A DNA stretch of 64,000 bases, from contig CACESU010000003.1 in NCBI GenBank assembly GCA_902562285.1, forward strand, positions 1 through 64,000, read 5' to 3'. Below the pieces are notes generated by a model that was not told where the DNA came from, did not search any database, and saw only the letters and a list, made by a program, of their open reading frames with translations. The position numbers and the translations under genes were made by a program. The DNA comes from an uncultured Alphaproteobacteria bacterium (GTDB lineage Bacteria; Pseudomonadota; Alphaproteobacteria; Rhodobacterales; Rhodobacteraceae). This document shows positions 4,464 to 64,000 of the stretch, in pieces (position 1 is the first letter of the stretch; each line of letters opens with the position of its first letter).

Positions 4464-5150
4464 ATGGAAAAAAAATATTTTAAAAATAAAATTGCTCTTG
4501 TTACAGGTGCTTCTAGAGGTTTTGGTTCTGCAATAGCACTAAAATTAGCACAAGCTGGAGCTAACCTAATAATTACGGCAAGAACAATTGGAGCATTAGA
4601 GGAATTATCCAACAAAATTCTAATATATGGAGGTAAAGTTACTGTAGTACCTCTAGATCTAAATAATCAAATACATACACAATTATTTTGTAAAACTCTT
4701 TATGAAAAGTTTGGGAAAATAGACTTTTTTATTCACTCAGCATTTTTAGCTATACCAATGGCACCCATTGAAACTGTAAGTGAAAAGGATATGACTAAGT
4801 ATTTTGCATCAAATACTTTCTTGACCCAAAGACTAATTAATTTAATTCATCCTTTATTAAAAATACAAAAAAATAGCATTGCTGTTTTCATTCATGATAA
4901 AACAAAAAAAAATTATAAAAAATTTTTGGGAGTTCACAAGGCAATTCAGGCAGCTTCAAAAGAAATTGTAAAATCATATTTGGAAGAAAGAATTAGGACT
5001 GGACCAAAAGTTTTAATATTTGAGCCACTATCTATGCCTACAAAAACTAGGAAAATAATGTTTCCAGGTGAAGATAAAAAGAAATTAAGTACATGTGAGA
5101 TAGAAGCCAATAAATTGATCAAAATCTTACTTTCTGAAATTAGTAATTAA
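4464..5150 (+). CDS. SDR family NAD(P)-dependent oxidoreductase
   Basis: N-terminal ALVTGASRGFGSAIALKLAQAGANLIITART Rossmann motif. Confidence 0.85.
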   Translation: MEKKYFKNKIALVTGASRGFGSAIALKLAQAGANLIITARTIGALEELSNKILIYGGKVTVVPLDLNNQIHTQLFCKTLYEKFGKIDFFIHSAFLAIPMAPIETVSEKDMTKYFASNTFLTQRLINLIHPLLKIQKNSIAVFIHDKTKKNYKKFLGVHKAIQAASKEIVKSYLEERIRTGPKVLIFEPLSMPTKTRKIMFPGEDKKKLSTCEIEANKLIKILLSEISN

Positions 5151-5152
5151 TC

Positions 5153-6586
5153 CTAAACATATGGATTATTTCCAACCTTAAATTTTAATCTTATAGGAAT
5201 ATTTTTCAAATTAAACTGGTCTCTGATGCTATTAAAAAGAAATTTTCTGTAATTTTTAGGAATATCAATACTTGAAGAAAATATTAAAAAATTTGGAGGT
5301 CTTGATTTAATTTGAGTAATATACCTTAGCCTCAATCTTCTTCCTTTCACCAGTGGAGGAGGATGCTCTGAAGTTTTTATTTCTAACCATCTATTTAATT
5401 TTGATGTGGTAAATCTTTTTTGCCAATTATCTTTTGCACCTAAAATTGCTGAGTAAAGTTTTTCAATACCCTCATTTCTAAGTGCAGAGATTGTAACAAA
5501 TGAAATATTTCCAAATTGGGGTAGTGATAATTTTATTTTATTTTTTAATATATCAATTTTTTCTTTTTTATTTTTTTCTTTATCCCACTTATTTAGAACT
5601 AAAATTAAACATCTACCTTCTTTTTCGATTAAATTGATAATCCTTAGATCTTGTAAATCAAATGCATTATCAACATCTAGCAACATGATAACAACTTCAG
5701 AAAATTTAATAACTTCTACTGATTTATCTACTGATAATTCTTCTAATCCTTTTTGAATTTTATTGAAGCGTCTAATACCAGCTGTATCAATTATCTTAAA
5801 ATCTTTTCCCATCCAATTAAAATCCACTAAAATTGGATCAGTAGTTGTACCAGACTTTGAACTTGTTAGAACTCTTCTTTTTTTTATTATAGCATTCAAA
5901 AGAGTTGATTTACCTACATTTGGTCTGCCAACTATAGCTATTTTAATGGGTTCGTTTTTTAAATTTACATTGTTTTTAGTAATTAGAGTTGAATACGGAT
6001 CTATAATATTTTTTTTCCTAAAAAAATTAGTTTCAAATAATCTTTTATTATCTCCAGGTATTTTTGGTTGCCTTAACTTTAAAAAATTCAAAATTTCTTT
6101 TTTTAAATCATCTATGCCCAAACCATGTGCAGCAGATATGGGAAAAGAATATTCTAAACCTAGTGAAAGAGGTTCCCAAAAACCCTCTAAGGCTTTTTTG
6201 CTATCATGTTTATTACTTATTAAAAAAGTTTTAAAAATAAATTTTTTTAAATAACTAGCAAATTCAATATCATTATTTGTTAATCCATTTTTTGAGTCTA
6301 CTACAAATAGTATTAGATCAGCATCTTTTAAAAGGTTTTCAATAATAGTCTTTATATCTTTTTGTAAGAAATTTTCTGGTGACAATAAATCACAACCTGC
6401 AGTATCATATAACCTTACTAAAAAATCACTTAGGTAAAAATCAAAATATCTAAAATCTCTTGTTGTTCCAGGATTATTGTCTGTAATCGATGTTGTCCTG
6501 TTCAATAGTCGATTAAATAAAGTAGATTTGCCCACATTAGAGCGACCTATAATTAAAACATTGAATAACGTCAATTTATTCACCAA
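5153..6586 (-). CDS. der: Ribosome-biogenesis GTPase Der (EngA)
   Basis: Two G domains (GRSNVGKSTLFNRL; GRPNVGKSTLLNAI) and KH-like C-terminus. Confidence 0.95.
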   Translation of the reverse strand: MVNKLTLFNVLIIGRSNVGKSTLFNRLLNRTTSITDNNPGTTRDFRYFDFYLSDFLVRLYDTAGCDLLSPENFLQKDIKTIIENLLKDADLILFVVDSKNGLTNNDIEFASYLKKFIFKTFLISNKHDSKKALEGFWEPLSLGLEYSFPISAAHGLGIDDLKKEILNFLKLRQPKIPGDNKRLFETNFFRKKNIIDPYSTLITKNNVNLKNEPIKIAIVGRPNVGKSTLLNAIIKKRRVLTSSKSGTTTDPILVDFNWMGKDFKIIDTAGIRRFNKIQKGLEELSVDKSVEVIKFSEVVIMLLDVDNAFDLQDLRIINLIEKEGRCLILVLNKWDKEKNKKEKIDILKNKIKLSLPQFGNISFVTISALRNEGIEKLYSAILGAKDNWQKRFTTSKLNRWLEIKTSEHPPPLVKGRRLRLRYITQIKSRPPNFLIFSSSIDIPKNYRKFLFNSIRDQFNLKNIPIRLKFKVGNNPYV

Positions 6587-55563: not shown

Positions 55564-55633
55564 TGGTGCCCGGGGGCGGTATTTGAACCACCGACACGAG
55601 GATTTTCAGTCCTCTGCTCTACCCCTGAGCTAC
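55564..55633 (-). tRNA. tRNA-Phe(GAA)-like 3' fragment (probable att remnant, not an intact tRNA)
   Basis: Reverse strand reads GTAGCTCAGGGGTAGAGCAGAGGACTGAAAATCCTCGTGTCGGTGGTTCAAATACCGCCCCCGGGCACCA; D and anticodon arms intact, 5' acceptor strand (CATTAA) does not pair with CCCGGGC, extra A in T-loop region. Confidence 0.8.
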
Positions 55634-55673
55634 TTAATGAAATCAATGCTTTAGCCGCAAACTAGCCTCCAAA

Positions 55674-55691
55674 GTCACAATCCTGTCACAA
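55674..55691 (+). repeat. Paired box 2: GTCACAA-TCCT-GTCACAA
   Basis: Direct repeat immediately upstream of integrase RBS, same spacing as box pair 1. Confidence 0.8.
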
Positions 55692-55703
55692 AAGGTGAGG
55701 ATT

Positions 55704-56651
55704 ATGGCTTCCTATCGAAAAAGAAATGGCAAATGGCAAGTACAAGTTAGACACCGTAATTTGGGATCCATTTCAAAAACATTTGCCAAAAAAGAATTGG
55801 CGAAAAAATGGGTGTTGGAACAAGAAATTGCCCATTTTAACAATCATTACCAGGATGAAGTAAGTTCTAATACTACTGTAGAAAATATGATGAGGCGTTA
55901 CCTAAAAGAGGTTACGCCAACAAAGCGAGGCCACGCGCCAGAGGAAAGGCGCCTGCAACGCTTACTGAAAGAAAATGAGCTAGTAGAAAAAAAATTAAGG
56001 ACTATTAAACCTCATGATTTTGCTAAGTTCAGAGACCAAAGACTTAAGCAAGGTGCCAGGACCTGTCATTACGACCTTGTTTTACTGCGCCATGCTTGGA
56101 ATATTGCCCGAATAGAATGGGGTTGGAACCTTGGGGCTAATCCTGTAAGCCTCATTCGATTTCCACGGTTAAACCCTCCCAGGGAACGACGCTTGAAACT
56201 GGGTGAGTTAGAACGATTACAAAAAGGAAATAAGAAATCAAAAGTTTGGTATCTTTGGCCCATTATTCAAATAGCTCTTGAAACAGGTATGCGAAGGGGT
56301 GAAATTCTATCCATAGAGTGGCGTAATGTGGATTTTGAAAGAAAGCAGGTCGTCCTCCCTCTAACCAAAAATGGCTACGCCCGGATTGTTCCTTTAAATG
56401 ATTTTGTGATTTCAATCATTAAAGATATACCAAAGTCTTATGAAAAAATTTTTCCAATTACAGACAATGCCTTTCGTCAGGCCTGGCATAGATTGCGAAC
56501 CAGAGCAAACCTCGATGATTTAAAGTTTCACGATTTAAGACATGAGGCCATTTCCAGAATGTTTGAAAATGGGATGAGCATTCCCCTTGTAAAAGCTATT
56601 ACAGGACACAGAACAGTGACCCAGTTATTTCGGTACATACAAATTGCTTAA
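55704..56651 (+). CDS. Tyrosine recombinase / phage-type integrase
   Basis: ETGMRRGEILSIEWRNVDF, FHDLRHEAISRMFE, GHRTVTQLFRYIQ (R-HxxR-H-Y); ATG 55704 preferred. Confidence 0.93.
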   Translation: MASYRKRNGKWQVQVRHRNLGSISKTFAKKELAKKWVLEQEIAHFNNHYQDEVSSNTTVENMMRRYLKEVTPTKRGHAPEERRLQRLLKENELVEKKLRTIKPHDFAKFRDQRLKQGARTCHYDLVLLRHAWNIARIEWGWNLGANPVSLIRFPRLNPPRERRLKLGELERLQKGNKKSKVWYLWPIIQIALETGMRRGEILSIEWRNVDFERKQVVLPLTKNGYARIVPLNDFVISIIKDIPKSYEKIFPITDNAFRQAWHRLRTRANLDDLKFHDLRHEAISRMFENGMSIPLVKAITGHRTVTQLFRYIQIA

Positions 56652-56692
56652 ATCAAAGTTAATTTATCTAATAGACAAATTATTATTGTAAG

Positions 56693-59095
56693 CTATTCAT
56701 TTTTAACAAAAATAAAATCCCCAATATCACTACCTGCGTGCACTAGACGTGCATAGATTGGACTTTGATCGGCATTGAGTTTAACTTTATGTTCGATCTT
56801 ATTGAATAACTGTTTTCCTGTTGTTGGGCTGTCTATTTTTCTAAGCTCCTGAAGAAAATAATAAGCAAAAATAGAATGACCATCTTTTCCGGAATCCGAT
56901 ACAGGTTCCAAATTACCGGAAGCCAGTACAGTTCTTCCCCTATGTTGTCTCATTTTTTCTATCCACTCCTCATCAGTAGTATCGTGCATCAGAGAAAGAT
57001 CTAAACCTCTAGTTAAAGAGCCTGCGAAACAGGAATCAGCGACAATCAGAATATGTTTAGCACCAATAGCTTTTAGTGGATCCACAATTTCCGAATTAGC
57101 TATCCAATTGGTTGTATCATAAATGTCCTTCTCTGCATCCACCGGCTGCCAATAGCCCTTATTGATTTCCTCATCTAAATAACCATGACCAGCATAATAA
57201 ATTAACAAATTGTCCTCTGGCCCTAAGTTTTTTCGATATTGATGGATGCTTTTAATTATGTCTCGACGTTTTGCATTCAAAATTAGCTTGGAATTAAAGT
57301 TGAAATGCTCTTTTAAGATGAAGCCGACCTGACGAGCATCATTTTCAGCATTTTTCAAATCATCTAATTTTTCATAATTATTATTACCTATTACTAAGGC
57401 ATGATAGCGACCATATTTATCGATATCAGTAACTTCGTCCGGTTCTGCTCTATTTTTTTCCAATGAAGCCTTTCTTTCTTCATTTATTGAAAAATCATTT
57501 TTTTCTTTGAAACATGGATCATAAATAGAGAATACTGATATATCTTTCAGTGCAAGCCCTTTTTCATTCCACTCTTCTGCCTTCTTTTCATTCTTTGGGG
57601 TACCACCCTTACCGAATTCATAAAATTCACTAAGTTCCAAGTGGGCAGGAGCAAAATTGTTGTTCGCCGCTTTTTCATAATATTGAAATGCTAGATCAAG
57701 ATCTCTTCTTACTCCTCGACCCTCTTCATATTGTTTACCTAAATCAAATAGAGACCTTGAAAAATCTTTCTGTATTTCTAAGGCTTGCTTATTCAAATCA
57801 ATAGATTTACTGGGATCACGATGCTCGTCCGGACCGTCTCGAAATATCCTCGCTAAATTATTATATGCTCTTGGGTTTTCAGCAAGGGATATAGCTTTGG
57901 AATAATATTCAATTGCTTTATTATAGTTGACAGCGGTGGCAAACCCAAATTCATAAAAACATCCTACATTATTTGCAGAATCAGAATGAAAGTCAGCCTG
58001 TTTAAGGTAATGTTTTAAAGCCTCTTCCTTATTTATCTCTACACCCACTCCTATGTCCAACCTTTTGGCCATCTCAAAAACTGAAGTATTATCACCTTGC
58101 TCAGCTGCCAATTTATACCACTTAAAAGCTTTTTCATCGTCTTTCTTTCTTTGATCGAAAGTACCTGAATAAATATCTGCCAGTAATCGCATAGCACCTC
58201 TATTTTTTGATTTTGCAGATTTTTCAGCGTTCTCTACTGCTGAATCCAAATCCGTTGATTTATTTGGCACCTGCCCACGGGTAAACATCAGGGCTATAGA
58301 ATAATATGCTTCATCACTGCCCTGCTTTGCAGAATCCAAGAATAATTGGTAGGCTTCCTTAAAATTTTTTTCGTTATAAAAAAAAAGACCAAGCATGAAT
58401 TGACCAAAACTATCACCAGTTCCTGCCGCTTGAGTAAAGAATTTCATAGCCTTGTCGGCATCTTTTTTGACACCCAAACCAAAATAGTAAATCCTGCCAA
58501 GTCTAGTCAAAGCTGGATTAATACCAACATTCTGTTTTCTCGTTCCATCGAGGGATTTTTGATATTTTCTCCTAGCCTCAACAATATTCTTCTCAGTACC
58601 TAATCCAAACTCAAGAAAATAACCCAATTTAAATAAAGCTTCCACGTTACCTTGACGGGCAGCCTTTTGATACCACTTAAGCGCCTCTTCATAACTGTGC
58701 TTGGTTCCTATTCCACCCTCATATAAGTTACCCAGTCTAACCTGAGCTTGTTCATTGCCTTGGCTTGCTGCTAGCTTAAAATATGTGTAAGCCTTTTCGT
58801 AATCCTGTTTAAGAAATTTGCCATCTAAATAAACTTGCGCAATTAAAGTTTGGGACACAGGATCACCTTGTTCTGCTCTGTCCCGATGAATTTCTAAGGG
58901 TTTTTTTTCGAGGTATTCACACTTTTCTTTTAACAGAATTGAACTATTTAAGTTTTCACTAATGCGGAGGTCGCTTGTATTGGGGTTATTAATTAAGAAT
59001 GGACAATCATTTTCTGGATCACCGAGGACAGGAGTGGTCATTAATGTCAAAACAACAACAAAAAAAAGACTACTAGTCAGAATTCTGATTCCCAT
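56693..59095 (-). CDS. Secreted Sel1-repeat protein with C-terminal caspase-like (peptidase C14) domain
   Basis: Signal peptide from M at 59095 (AGGAG upstream); many ~36-aa Sel1 repeats (AYTYFKLAASQGNEQAQVRLGNLYEGGIGTKHSYEEALKWYQKAARQGNVEALFKLGYFLEFGLGTEKN); YHALVIGNNNYEKLDDLKNAENDA, IYYAGHGYLDE, LIVADSCFAGSL catalytic His/Cys. Confidence 0.93.
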   Translation of the reverse strand: MGIRILTSSLFFVVVLTLMTTPVLGDPENDCPFLINNPNTSDLRISENLNSSILLKEKCEYLEKKPLEIHRDRAEQGDPVSQTLIAQVYLDGKFLKQDYEKAYTYFKLAASQGNEQAQVRLGNLYEGGIGTKHSYEEALKWYQKAARQGNVEALFKLGYFLEFGLGTEKNIVEARRKYQKSLDGTRKQNVGINPALTRLGRIYYFGLGVKKDADKAMKFFTQAAGTGDSFGQFMLGLFFYNEKNFKEAYQLFLDSAKQGSDEAYYSIALMFTRGQVPNKSTDLDSAVENAEKSAKSKNRGAMRLLADIYSGTFDQRKKDDEKAFKWYKLAAEQGDNTSVFEMAKRLDIGVGVEINKEEALKHYLKQADFHSDSANNVGCFYEFGFATAVNYNKAIEYYSKAISLAENPRAYNNLARIFRDGPDEHRDPSKSIDLNKQALEIQKDFSRSLFDLGKQYEEGRGVRRDLDLAFQYYEKAANNNFAPAHLELSEFYEFGKGGTPKNEKKAEEWNEKGLALKDISVFSIYDPCFKEKNDFSINEERKASLEKNRAEPDEVTDIDKYGRYHALVIGNNNYEKLDDLKNAENDARQVGFILKEHFNFNSKLILNAKRRDIIKSIHQYRKNLGPEDNLLIYYAGHGYLDEEINKGYWQPVDAEKDIYDTTNWIANSEIVDPLKAIGAKHILIVADSCFAGSLTRGLDLSLMHDTTDEEWIEKMRQHRGRTVLASGNLEPVSDSGKDGHSIFAYYFLQELRKIDSPTTGKQLFNKIEHKVKLNADQSPIYARLVHAGSDIGDFIFVKNE

Positions 59096-59429
59096 CACAG
59101 CACTCCTAAAGTCAACAAATCTATTCAAACATGAACATCGTTTTAGCACCAAGATCAATCAAATTTATTCGAAAAAAATCCTGAAGTCAAAAACCAAAAT
59201 CATATGCCAACTTTTATTTAAATATATATTAGATCGTTCAAGTAACCCATAGGCATTTTTCCCTTGCGCATCAAAATACATATTTCCTATATTAAATACC
59301 AAAATCACAAGATTATTGCATAACGATTGTTTTTATGAATAATTTACTTTTAGTTTCATTGTTTGAGAAAAATGAATTACCAGATTAAACATTTTATACG
59401 TAAAACCTTTAAGGGATTTCATATCACTG

Positions 59430-60839
59430 ATGGATATCATACCCTTTAAAACCTTTTCACTTGGCGAAAGGATGCTGGTGACAAACGATGCTGGCAACTT
59501 CTTTTTTGGATCTAGTGAAATAGTTCAAAGACTAAAAGAAAATTCCATTGAACCATTTTTTGAAAGATTTCTCTTTAAGAAAAACTTTGCCTTTAATAAT
59601 AAGAATAGCCTCGAGTATTCCTCCTATGCATTTAACTCTGCCCTTAGAAGATTAACCCCCAATAAATTAAAATATATACTTGTGATCCCAACATTACGAT
59701 GTGACTTGAGTTGCACTTATTGTCAAGTATCTAGAGCTAGCATTAAGGCAAAAAGCTTTGACTGGTGTGATGAAACAGTCGATCGGTTCATTGATTTCGT
59801 AAATGAATATGCAGATACAGAATTAAAGATAGAATTCCAGGGAGGGGAACCTACCTTACGACTCGATTTAATAAAAAAGATTGTCGATGAGGTTTCAAAA
59901 ATTCGACCCTCCTCAACATTCATAATTTGTACCAATCTTCAAAATTATTCTAAAGAATTAAAAAATATTTTGCACAATAAAAATGTCCAGATCAGCACTT
60001 CATTAGACGGTAGCAAGAAACTCCATACCCAAAATAGAACAAAGAAAATGACTTCAACTGAAAAATTCTTCACCAATTTGAGAGAAGTAATTAAAGATAT
60101 TGGCCATCATCGAGTAAGTGCGCTACCAACCATTTCTGATTTTGATCAAATAATGGATGTCATTAAAACATACCACTCAATGGGATTGAATGAGGTTTTC
60201 TTAAGGCCGGTTAATTATCAAGGTTTTGCACGGAAAAAGCATAAGGAAAGTAAGAATGACGTCGAAAAATGGATTAAGGCTTATTGTAAAGCTATAGATT
60301 ACATAATTGAACATAATGAGACTGAAGATCAAAAGATCATTGAGACAAATTTAGCTATACACCTGAGAAGAATATTTCATCCTGGTCAAAATGGTTATGT
60401 CGATTTACGATCTCCAAATCCAGTCGCCCAAGATTACTTGGTTATCAACTATGATGGGTCATTCTATCCTACTGATGAAGCACGGATGCTCACGCGCATT
60501 GGTTTGATTGATTTACGGATAGGCTCAATTAAAGATGGGATGGATCTAGAAAAGATAAATTCTTTAAATCAGGCACAAGATAATAAAAATGATAAAGCCT
60601 GCAAAAATTGTGCCTTACAACCTTTTTGTGGTGTAGACATTATTGACAAAATAAGTAGATATCAAACGGTTGATTATCCTACAGAAAAAACCTATTTCTG
60701 TCAGTTTCACATGGCAGTTTTCACAAAAATATTTGATTTGTTTTCAAAAGGTGACATCAGATTCCTAAAGACAGCATCCCTGCATCTTGGAGGAACCTAT
60801 GCACTTAGTCCAGCATTAGCAGGCTTTAATTGTGATTGA
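59430..60839 (+). CDS. hxsB: His-Xaa-Ser system radical SAM maturase HxsB
   Basis: Radical SAM CDLSCTYC (59700-59723), EFQGGEPTLR, C-terminal CKNCALQPFCGVD...FC auxiliary-cluster-like Cys; paired with hxsC/hxsA. Confidence 0.88.
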   Translation: MDIIPFKTFSLGERMLVTNDAGNFFFGSSEIVQRLKENSIEPFFERFLFKKNFAFNNKNSLEYSSYAFNSALRRLTPNKLKYILVIPTLRCDLSCTYCQVSRASIKAKSFDWCDETVDRFIDFVNEYADTELKIEFQGGEPTLRLDLIKKIVDEVSKIRPSSTFIICTNLQNYSKELKNILHNKNVQISTSLDGSKKLHTQNRTKKMTSTEKFFTNLREVIKDIGHHRVSALPTISDFDQIMDVIKTYHSMGLNEVFLRPVNYQGFARKKHKESKNDVEKWIKAYCKAIDYIIEHNETEDQKIIETNLAIHLRRIFHPGQNGYVDLRSPNPVAQDYLVINYDGSFYPTDEARMLTRIGLIDLRIGSIKDGMDLEKINSLNQAQDNKNDKACKNCALQPFCGVDIIDKISRYQTVDYPTEKTYFCQFHMAVFTKIFDLFSKGDIRFLKTASLHLGGTYALSPALAGFNCD

Positions 60840-61938
60840 TCTAAATATAAACTTGGATCTCCTAGAAGGAGCATCTTCCCCGATTGTAGTAAAATTAGCT
60901 GATCTTACCAAAGGCTGCAAAAAAAAACCTGACATGGTTAAAGTTAGATGCAGCCCGAACCGATCCATTTTTGGAAATTGGTGCTCCGGAGAGGAAGAAG
61001 TTAGTATTGGCTTCTCTCCAAAATTTAATATTGAAGAAGGCGAAATTTGGTTGATTTTCCCTGCGGAAAATAAAGCAAAAAGATTTTTTCGACCCTCATC
61101 AAATTCTAACACCCTATTATTTACTGAACGGTGTGATCAAAAGTGTATTATGTGCTCCCAACCTCCAAAGAATAAAGATTACCTTTATTGGGACCTTTAC
61201 TTCTCAGCTTTGAAAGAACTACCAAACAAGACTTTCTTCGGAATATCCGGCGGTGAACCCTTACTAGAAAAAGAACAACTTTTTGAACTTCTCAGAAAGG
61301 TCATTTCAATTCGGCCAGATCTCAAATTCCATATTCTAACTAATGCCCAGCATTTTAGCTCTGATGACATTTCAGAGCTGACCTCACTAAATAAAAATAT
61401 ATTGTGGGGGATACCACTTTATTCTACGAACGATGCAATACATGATAAAATAGTTGGCAAGAAAGGAGCTTTTGAAAATCTTCTTGGAAGCATGACCGTC
61501 CTCTATCAATCAGGGGCACAAATCGAATTAAGAACAGTACTGCTACAACAGAATGTCGGATACCTCAGTCATATTGTAAATTTTATTGCAGATAAAATGC
61601 CTTGGATTTCCTATTGGGCACTTATGCAACTTGAACCAATTGGATTTGCAAGAATTGAATTTTTAGAAAAATTTTACGATCACTCACAGAATTTTGAACT
61701 AGTTAAATTAGCTTTGGACTCTGCCAAAATCAGGGGAGTAACGACAAAGCTTTATAATTTCCCTTCTTGCACAGTCAACAAACCCTATCGAGAATTGTCC
61801 AATAAATCTATTTCCGATTGGAAAAATAAATTCCTTGACATATGTTCTGGATGTAAAGAAAAACAACATTGCTCTGGATTTTTTGAATGGTATAATCATA
61901 CTATTGGATATCAGAACTTGGGAACAAAATACCTATGA
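60832..61938 (+). CDS. hxsC: His-Xaa-Ser system radical SAM maturase HxsC
   Basis: CDQKCIMCSQPP radical SAM motif, FFGISGGEPLLEKE, C-terminal CSGCKEKQHCSGFF; overlaps hxsB by 8 nt. Confidence 0.88.
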   Translation: MIDLNINLDLLEGASSPIVVKLADLTKGCKKKPDMVKVRCSPNRSIFGNWCSGEEEVSIGFSPKFNIEEGEIWLIFPAENKAKRFFRPSSNSNTLLFTERCDQKCIMCSQPPKNKDYLYWDLYFSALKELPNKTFFGISGGEPLLEKEQLFELLRKVISIRPDLKFHILTNAQHFSSDDISELTSLNKNILWGIPLYSTNDAIHDKIVGKKGAFENLLGSMTVLYQSGAQIELRTVLLQQNVGYLSHIVNFIADKMPWISYWALMQLEPIGFARIEFLEKFYDHSQNFELVKLALDSAKIRGVTTKLYNFPSCTVNKPYRELSNKSISDWKNKFLDICSGCKEKQHCSGFFEWYNHTIGYQNLGTKYL

Positions 61939-62441
61939 AGTTTTTCTTAATACCTTCACTTTTTGCTGCTGGATTGGGATCAAATATAGACAATGCAGAA
62001 AATACAGTAAAAGAAAATAAAGCAATAGAAAATCCAGATGAACAGGCATCAATTTTAAATTATCGGCTCCCTTTTGTTCTGGCTGGCCATTCATCGCACT
62101 CTAGTCATGCAAGTCACGGGAGTCATGGAAGTCATCGTAGCAGCAGTACTGGAAGCAACCCTTCATACTCCAGCCCTAGCCCCTCAACTCCTGGCAATTC
62201 AACAACTCCTGAAGGCATTCTACCAAAAATTAAACCCAATTCTGCAGATTATTCAGCCCTAGTCTTAGAAATTCAAACTTGCCTCCAAATTTTTAACTAT
62301 TACTTTGGTCCTTTAGATGGAATTTTGGGATCAAAAACTAAGCAAGCTATTGCAGAAGCACAAAAACAAAATAACATGACCGTGACTGGGACATTGGACA
62401 TGGAATTTATAAAACGATGCCGCGTTTCATTAAAAAATTGA
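61935..62441 (+). CDS. hxsA: His-Xaa-Ser repeat protein HxsA with peptidoglycan-binding-like C-terminus
   Basis: HSSHSSHASHGSHGSHRS repeat, then LEIQTCLQIFNYYFGPLDGILGSKTKQAIAEAQKQNNMTVTGTLD; ATGA overlap with hxsC. Confidence 0.9.
   Translation: MKFFLIPSLFAAGLGSNIDNAENTVKENKAIENPDEQASILNYRLPFVLAGHSSHSSHASHGSHGSHRSSSTGSNPSYSSPSPSTPGNSTTPEGILPKIKPNSADYSALVLEIQTCLQIFNYYFGPLDGILGSKTKQAIAEAQKQNNMTVTGTLDMEFIKRCRVSLKN
62088..62141 (+). repeat. Six tandem 9-nt units encoding H-x-S
   Basis: cat tca tcg / cac tct agt / cat gca agt / cac ggg agt / cat gga agt / cat cgt agc. Confidence 0.95.
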
Positions 62442-62463
62442 TAGCGATTGGTGGCTAGTTTAA

Positions 62464-62880
62464 ATGTTTAAATTACTACCTGCGAAAAAACTACCAAAAA
62501 TAAACCAAATTCTGCTCTTCATTTTCGTTGCGATAGTGTTTTTTGTTATTGGCGCTTCTTGGAAGCTTCCATACCAATATACCTTGATGCAACTTTATCA
62601 AAAGAGTTACGCAGAACTCGTATTCAAGTGCGACAATGTTATGAAAGAGCACTACATTTCAAAAGCTAAATTAATGAACCAAGGTAACGAACAAAACTTA
62701 AAGGAATTATGGTCAAGTGAATTGGGCTTAGTTGAATGTCATCGTTATGACAAATTAAGAAAAAAATTGGTATGGTACGGCTTAACCGAAAATGAATTAG
62801 CAATGATGGGGTTAAAGGCCATTGAAATAAACAAGGCTGATTTGCGAAAAATAGTGGTGACACATGAAATTAACGATTAG
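62464..62880 (+). CDS. Small single-TM Hxs-associated protein (TIGR03982-like)
   Basis: N-terminal TM QILLFIFVAIVFFVIGASW followed by a 100-aa soluble domain; operon position between hxsA and the di-heme gene. Confidence 0.65.
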   Translation: MFKLLPAKKLPKINQILLFIFVAIVFFVIGASWKLPYQYTLMQLYQKSYAELVFKCDNVMKEHYISKAKLMNQGNEQNLKELWSSELGLVECHRYDKLRKKLVWYGLTENELAMMGLKAIEINKADLRKIVVTHEIND

Positions 62881-64000
62881 CTTTCTCCTCTTTTTTCTTT
62901 CCTTCAACAGTTTTCTGCTAGGCTCAGCTCTTGAAGAATCCTTACTACGTGAAGCAGCGGAAAAAGATGGCTACTTACCCGCCGAGAAGGTAAATTTGCC
63001 ATTTGATTCGACCAAAAGTGCCATCGGCAAGAAACTTTTTGAATCAAGTACTTTAAGTTTCAATAGTGACATGAATTGTCAGACTTGCCATTTACCACAA
63101 TTTTCTTCAGGAGATGGATTGTCAAATGCCATAGGAACGGACGGAGCAGGTCACGGTTTGAAAAGGCTTATGTCGGGCGGACAGATAGTCCCCAGAAACA
63201 CATTACCCCTATGGGGAAGGGGAGGCCTGGGTTTCAAGACTTTTTTTTGGGATGGCAAGGTGGAAAAAATTTCTGAGAAGATTCTAAGCCAGTTTGGAGA
63301 AAACCCACCAAGTAGTGATCCATTAATAACAGCGGTTCATTTGCCGTTCGTAGAAATTCGTGAAATGATTAGGAATGATGTGGAGATAGATGAAGAATAT
63401 AAGACTGAGAGCCTTGAAAGTGCTTTCACCATTCTAGATGATCTCGTCAAACGAATAAGTAAGAGCTCCCTTGGATTAGAGTTAGCCAAGGCCTACAACA
63501 AAAGAATTGAAGATCTTCAGTTCCTCGATATTGCAAATTCAATTAGCCACCACATAAGAGACGCGTTCAGTCTAAAACAGAGCAAATTTTCCCTCTTTTT
63601 TACAAAAAAGAGTAATTTAACTGATGATGAACTTGAAGGAGGGTTAATTTTTTATGGAAAAGGGAAATGCTCAAACTGTCATTCCGGATCACATTTCAGT
63701 GATTTCAAATTTCACAACATAGTACTTCCTCAATTTGGATTTGGGAAAAATGGATTTGGGATTGATTATGGAAGATTTAATGTTACCAAAGATTACAATG
63801 ATCTTTATAAATTTAGAACACCACCTTTAGCAAACGTTAAGAAAACAGGCCCATACGGGCATTCAGGTTCGATGAAAACATTAAATGATGTTATTGCCGG
63901 ACACTTTGATCCGTTGAGATTTTTTAACACACAGAAACTTGATCCTATAAGAAGAAGAGAATTATTTAACAGAATACAGATGACAGCAAACCAACCAAAC
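62864..64000 (+). CDS. MauG-like / di-heme cytochrome c peroxidase family protein (partial, runs off the window)
   Basis: My translation from ATG 62864 is open for 379 codons; signal peptide MKLTISFLLFFLSFNSFLLGSA; heme motifs CQTCH (63077-63091) and CSNCH (63668-63682); KFRTPPLANVKKTGPYGHSGSMKTLNDVI. Confidence 0.92.
   Translation, partial: MKLTISFLLFFLSFNSFLLGSALEESLLREAAEKDGYLPAEKVNLPFDSTKSAIGKKLFESSTLSFNSDMNCQTCHLPQFSSGDGLSNAIGTDGAGHGLKRLMSGGQIVPRNTLPLWGRGGLGFKTFFWDGKVEKISEKILSQFGENPPSSDPLITAVHLPFVEIREMIRNDVEIDEEYKTESLESAFTILDDLVKRISKSSLGLELAKAYNKRIEDLQFLDIANSISHHIRDAFSLKQSKFSLFFTKKSNLTDDELEGGLIFYGKGKCSNCHSGSHFSDFKFHNIVLPQFGFGKNGFGIDYGRFNVTKDYNDLYKFRTPPLANVKKTGPYGHSGSMKTLNDVIAGHFDPLRFFNTQKLDPIRRRELFNRIQMTANQPN

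Follow-up and report, generated by a model that had tools for sequence, protein, structure and literature searches.

A TIGR03982/di-heme enzyme pair as a separable module of the His-Xaa-Ser radical SAM system, associated with a linker motif of HxsA

The window, a stretch of 64,000 nucleotides from a member of the Rhodobacteraceae, carries an operon of the His-Xaa-Ser (Hxs) system in which a small membrane protein (family TIGR03982) and a di-heme enzyme form a separable module, whose presence coincides with that of a short motif, the ST-box, in the linker of HxsA. The separability of this module and its link to the ST-box are the new elements of this analysis. The gene set itself is already known, all five proteins falling in or near families named by NCBI, and the link between Hxs and a MauG-like protein is an existing annotation, TIGR03981 being named "His-Xaa-Ser system-associated MauG-like protein." TIGR03982 is likewise already defined as an Hxs-associated family in NCBIfam. 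Genome annotations have included the Hxs system for years, and the openly available literature searched, with subscription papers mostly outside its scope, describes no characterized product. HxsB and HxsC are referred to there as putative maturases (PMC9062424).

The operon consists of five genes (hxsB-hxsC-hxsA-TIGR03982-di-heme), all on the + strand, and extends from position 59430 to contig position 64075, beyond the window end at 64000. Five same-strand genes with overlapping junctions had been reported in the preliminary description of this DNA, and all of these ORFs were confirmed. The overlaps are 8 bp (hxsB/hxsC), 4 bp (hxsC/hxsA; ATGA), and 17 bp (TIGR03982/di-heme), and a 22-bp gap separates hxsA from the TIGR03982 gene. 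Retrieval of the sequence to the right of position 64000, which that description had suggested, revealed that the di-heme gene continues to its stop codon at 64075. In HxsA, a Ser/Pro-rich linker lies between the HxS units and the PF01471 domain. The lack of an hxsD-position ORF, the motif of the HxsA linker, and the boundaries of the integrative element (the last two listed in the table) had been overlooked in the preliminary description.

Features of the hxs operon and of the element that carries it (positions are those of the contig; aa, residue numbers of the protein)
Feature	Position	Strand	Description
52-bp direct repeat, left copy	55601..55652	.	Overlaps the tRNA-Phe(GAA) remnant
tRNA-Phe(GAA) remnant	55574-55633	-	Overlapped by the left repeat copy
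Tyrosine integrase of the element	55695..56651	+	PF00589
Sel1-repeat and caspase-domain protein, co-cargo	56693..59158	-	PF08238, PF00656
hxsB	59430..60839	+	469 aa, radical SAM; TIGR03978, PF04055
hxsB cysteine motifs			CxxxCxxC, aa 91-98; CxxCx5C, aa 391-400 (C-terminal, SPASM-like)
hxsC	60832..61938	+	368 aa, GTG start, radical SAM; TIGR03977
hxsC CxxxCxxC			aa 101-108
hxsA	61935..62441	+	168 aa; hydrophobic N-terminal segment, then five HxS units, a linker with the ST-box, and PG_binding_1
HxsA His-Xaa-Ser repeat region	62088..62135	+	HSSHSSHASHGSHGSH, aa 52-67
ST-box of the HxsA linker	62199..62225	+	STTPEGILP, aa 89-97
HxsA PG_binding_1 domain	62256..62411	+	PF01471, aa 108-159
TIGR03982 gene	62464..62880	+	138 aa; membrane helix at the N terminus, plus a helical domain
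Di-heme MauG/CCP-like gene	62864..64000 in the window	+	403 aa in full, ending at contig position 64075; TIGR03981, PF03150
Di-heme enzyme residues			CxxCH, aa 72-76 and 269-273; W129; E167; distal-position H347
52-bp direct repeat, right copy	64130-64181		Lies 55 bp downstream of the stop codon of the di-heme gene

HMM searches against the Hxs families, also proposed in the preliminary description, placed four of the five proteins above the NCBIfam cutoffs: HxsB (TIGR03978, 396.9 bits; cutoff, 370), HxsC (TIGR03977, 295.4 bits; cutoff, 267.9), the TIGR03982 protein (87 bits; cutoff, 40), and the di-heme protein (TIGR03981, 364.9 bits for the full 403 residues and 353.3 bits for the 379 residues limited by the window; cutoff, 340). 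The short HxsA scored 99.4 bits against TIGR03979, under the cutoff of 121.65, this model still being by far its best NCBIfam match. Thus, as had been described, the operon encodes two different radical SAM maturases, a His-Xaa-Ser substrate-like protein with five HxS units and a PF01471 peptidoglycan-binding domain, and a di-heme partner (PF03150) of the MauG/CCP superfamily. The locus resembles the Hxs system defined by TIGR03976 to TIGR03979, TIGR03981, and TIGR03982 in the four proteins over their cutoffs, in the layout of HxsA, and in a gene order found elsewhere, but differs from it in the below-cutoff HxsA and in HxsD, which was not found in an assembly that is 68% complete. Within the window, no ORF for HxsD precedes hxsB, and neither TIGR03976 nor alignment A8 detected HxsD in this incomplete genome, in a search run with no positive control. 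In most loci with the conserved gene order, a short ORF occupies the HxsD position immediately upstream of hxsB. The HxsD-position ORFs of related loci also fail TIGR03976, and the six that were tested matched no NCBIfam model. For the five proteins, PADLOC returned just weak viperin matches, which are typical of radical SAM proteins.

HxsB was detected in 15 of 399 genomes sampled from the same phylum. TIGR03982 was present in 2 of 399 (we took the two samples, equal in size, to be the same draw), namely, the genome of the window and one whose contig begins inside the TIGR03982 gene. Among 101 relatives, the TIGR03981 cutoff was passed by the window's genome only; weaker di-heme paralogs (230 to 270 bits) are frequent in Rhodobacteraceae, and the one examined, in the window's own genome, had no hxs genes beside it. 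Scanning GTDB genomes with the di-heme alignment afforded 16 loci, from Alphaproteobacteria and from bins labeled Binatia, Acidobacteriota, Mariprofundaceae, and Phycisphaerales. The order hxsB-hxsC-hxsA-TIGR03982-di-heme was found in 12 of these 16 loci (those with enough context), 11 of which are distinct, the near-copies L071 and L072 being counted once. Plasmids of Tritonibacter and Thioclava have the same five-gene order, with only an hxsB fragment matched in Thioclava. The recurrence of this order in other organisms, at 11 distinct loci and on two plasmids, indicates that it is not due to chance. In locus L066, hxsB is split in two frames; in L068, it lies at 4575-5987. Viral contigs contained one di-heme relative (33% identical) and no TIGR03982 match.

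The link between the module and HxsA emerged from a comparison set of 41 hxs loci, of which 16 contain the TIGR03982/di-heme pair and 25 lack it. The ST-box, with the pattern STx[P/D]xx[VI][LM]P, also written ST[PTS][PD]xx[VI][LM]P, was found in the HxsA linker of 15 of the 16 module-bearing loci and in none of the 25 module-less loci, while shuffling of the linkers predicts about 0.001 ST-boxes per 16 module-bearing HxsA proteins. The motif was first noticed by eye on loci L060 to L074, which belong to the same comparison set. In loci fetched after that observation, all three module-bearing loci with HxsA (L077, L079, and L080) have the ST-box, and it is found in none of the 11 module-less loci with HxsA (L075, L076, and L081 to L089). 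The sole module-bearing exception is L064, whose HxsA has HxS repeats and lacks the ST-box. This locus encodes a separate secreted PF01471 protein of 152 residues, which has an ST-box (STPPVSVLP) and no HxS repeats; this companion, with ERSTPPVSVLPASP, lies directly upstream of the TIGR03982 and di-heme genes. The HxsB and HxsC proteins of L064 fall in the other main clade of the tree.

Six changes of module state are required on the HxsC tree, of which at least four are forced by supported branches. The TIGR03982 protein and the di-heme enzyme thus form, on this phylogeny, a separable module that was acquired or lost on four or more occasions. Coevolution of the module with the ST-box is strongly indicated but not proven by these comparisons, in which the loci are related rather than independent and L064 is a single case. 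The module could instead be a mere neighbor of the hxs genes, with the ST-box as a lineage marker inherited along with it. The shared ancestry of related loci and the joint transfer of the whole operon by integrative elements and plasmids are consistent with such an origin, but the forced changes of module state, which are accompanied by matching states of the motif, and the presence of the motif in a different protein in L064 make it very improbable. From the association between the ST-box and the module, one can predict the part of HxsA on which each enzyme pair acts, and L064 offers a natural control.

Alignments of the TIGR03982 protein revealed invariant residues at C56-D57, H63, C92, Y95-D96, and H134-E135. 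Its AlphaFold2 model is all helical (mean pLDDT, 87.9), and a fold search with this model returned no significant relative. Four distinct Rhodobacterales loci possess a second, downstream di-heme gene whose product is fused at its N terminus to a TIGR03982-like domain; in Oricola, the TIGR03982-like gene is separate, adjacent to and preceding the second di-heme gene. Profile comparison related the TIGR03982-like domain to TIGR03982 (E value, 5e-11; probability, 97), and the TIGR03982 model itself matches the fused domain weakly. These fusions and this adjacency support a physical partnership between the TIGR03982 protein and the di-heme enzyme. TIGR03982-like matches in one alphaproteobacterial family (L091 to L093, of which L091 and L092 were examined) were discarded as chance matches in unrelated frames.

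The preliminary description had drawn a parallel with MauG-dependent quinone maturation, which the analysis did not support in that form. Bacterial CCPs use Met and MauG uses Tyr as the axial residue (PMC6405878), and the axial Tyr of the six-coordinate heme of MauG, MbnH, and BthA is needed for formation of the bis-Fe(IV) state. In the di-heme family, 20 of 20 sequences have a His 14 residues downstream of the PYxHSG His (H347 in this enzyme), versus Tyr at the aligned axial position in MbnH and BthA. The Y294H substitution in MauG and the Y463H substitution in BthA abolish the near-infrared feature of bis-Fe(IV), while BthA Y463H retains peroxidase turnover (PMC6405878). The search against the MauG family, also suggested in the preliminary description, gave a score far under the cutoff (TIGR03791, 73.5 versus 443.85 bits), and MauG identity was rejected on this score and on the axial His in place of Tyr. 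The Trp between the hemes (W129) and the peroxide-site Glu (E167) are invariant in the alignment, in which we read them as the probable equivalents of W93 and of E113/E277. The enzyme therefore shares with MauG (PDB 3l4m) the superfamily fold, the bridging Trp, and the distal Glu, but differs in the axial residue, and its HxsA contains no Trp. Comparison of the family profile with MauG structures gave a higher score for the Y294H variant (3orv, 77.0 bits) than for the wild type (73.2 bits).

In a MauG-type maturation, the radical SAM step would be followed by formation of a quinone or a cross-link from HxsA aromatic residues, oxidized by the di-heme enzyme in a bis-Fe(IV) state. Membership in the superfamily, conservation of Trp129 and Glu167, and the short name of TIGR03981, SAM_quin_mod, are in line with this possibility, but the replacement of the axial Tyr by an invariant His, at the position where substitution costs MauG and BthA the bis-Fe(IV) state (PMC6405878), the zero Trp content of the window's HxsA, and the low TIGR03791 score render it improbable. 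In particular, tryptophan-quinone chemistry of the MauG type on HxsA appears unlikely, since the axial His is invariant and HxsA has no Trp.

MbnH (PDB 6e1c) is the closest solved relative by sequence (E value, 1.7e-33 with the profile) and also contains two CxxCH motifs, but it has an axial Tyr where the di-heme family has an invariant His, and the score against the MbnH model TIGR04039 was under the cutoff (98.2 versus 362.85 bits). Its partner is MbnP, which we take to be unrelated to HxsA. By analogy with this pair, the di-heme enzyme could tailor a metal-binding protein, the HxS repeats binding copper or zinc. The repeats are His rich and MbnH is described as linked to microbial copper homeostasis; the axial Tyr of MbnH and the lack of recognized copper genes among the tested flanks of the window leave metal handling with a low probability.

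BthA (PDB 6nx0) is a di-heme peroxidase of the same superfamily that has an axial Tyr and a bridging Ser (PMC6405878), versus His and Trp in the enzyme studied here. The AlphaFold2 model of the latter is poor (mean pLDDT, 58), and its structural matches merely restate the superfamily. The module could be an ordinary peroxide-reducing peroxidase that is anchored by the TIGR03982 protein, with HxsA as its wall-bound partner or electron donor and no covalent change made by the di-heme enzyme. This possibility draws on the turnover of BthA Y463H, which has the same axial residue (PMC6405878), and on the occurrence of bacterial CCPs among the best structural and sequence matches. We consider it fairly unlikely, because a general peroxidase would not need to be paired so strictly with a single HxsA motif and a single small partner gene. 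A native partner enzyme with an axial His would be a useful counterpart to the MauG Y294H and BthA Y463H mutants.

The conserved gene order, the distribution of the ST-box, the case of L064, the changes of module state, the fusions, and the conserved Trp, Glu, and His residues together favor a two-compartment protein modification system whose module would recognize the ST-box and oxidize with H2O2, a reading to which we give slightly less than an even chance. Judging from their families, HxsB and HxsC would carry out a first, cytosolic step, with the His-Xaa-Ser repeats of HxsA as their target. HxsA would then be exported and anchored to the peptidoglycan by its C-terminal domain, as the PF01471 match suggests. 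The TIGR03982 protein, anchored in the membrane, and the di-heme enzyme, in the periplasm, would form a complex that docks on the ST-box, a role suggested by the coevolution and the fusions, leading to the H2O2-driven oxidation of HxsA or of a residue that HxsA brings close. Oxidation would proceed from a bis-His six-coordinate heme and not from the Tyr-dependent bis-Fe(IV) state of MauG. Against this reading, the ST-box has no redox-active residue and may be a docking or processing site only, and outside the peptidoglycan-binding fold no conserved Trp or Tyr of HxsA stands out as a target. More tentatively, and with clear doubt, the TIGR03982/di-heme pair might be a detachable, ST-box-addressed envelope oxidation module plugged into a radical SAM system, modification occurring in two compartments, first by radical SAM chemistry and then by a peroxide-driven, naturally bis-His enzyme.

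The hxs operon is cargo of an 8.5-kb integrative element inserted at tRNA-Phe, delimited by direct repeats whose copies are 8,529 bp apart. The order is sucC-sucD, the tRNA-Phe(GAA) remnant, the integrase, the Sel1/caspase gene, the hxs operon, the second repeat, and the truncated start of an integrase gene. Intact tRNA-Phe genes are present in the three members of the genus that were examined, and one of them adjoins an integrase of the same family.

The hxs operon, comprising hxsB, hxsC, hxsA, the TIGR03982 gene, and the MauG-like di-heme gene, is carried by an integrative element in which 52-bp direct repeats flank an integrase, the Sel1/caspase gene, and the operon itself. A second, truncated integrase is located past the right repeat. 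Relatives of the Sel1/caspase protein were also detected near tRNA-Phe copies on a different contig of the same genome and, as a fragment only, in a genus member.

Location of the element and of related genes
Feature	Coordinates
Integrative element (8.5 kb) at tRNA-Phe	window 55574-59158; contig C3 64130-64181
Sel1/caspase relative, own genome	L113:114-2696
Sel1/caspase fragment, genus member	L112:9489-9860
TIGR03981-like paralog, own genome	G000:C8:20778-21947 (L007:8698-10461)
Second di-heme genes	L065:9260-11037; L068:9167-10744

The source genome encodes a TIGR03981-like paralog (260 bits) around which hxs genes are absent. Rhodobacterales and Oricola loci (L065, L068, and L070 to L073) contain a second di-heme gene after the first; a TIGR03982-like domain is either part of this second gene as a fusion or lies directly ahead of it. 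In the plasmids collection, 316 of the 411 records matching HxsB were from Klebsiella, and a di-heme search of that collection did not find the TIGR03982/di-heme pair on the Klebsiella plasmids. In the HxsC tree, locus L056, a relative devoid of this pair, belongs to the same clade as the window (branches are long; support 94/91), and its HxsA displays SPSPSGIFP at the position of the ST-box (STx[P/D]xx[VI][LM]P), possibly a decayed copy of this motif.

Several hxs loci (L087, L088, L046, and others) are close to anti-phage genes, namely, a CBASS cyclase plus phospholipase, a SIR2-type candidate, and reverse transcriptases.
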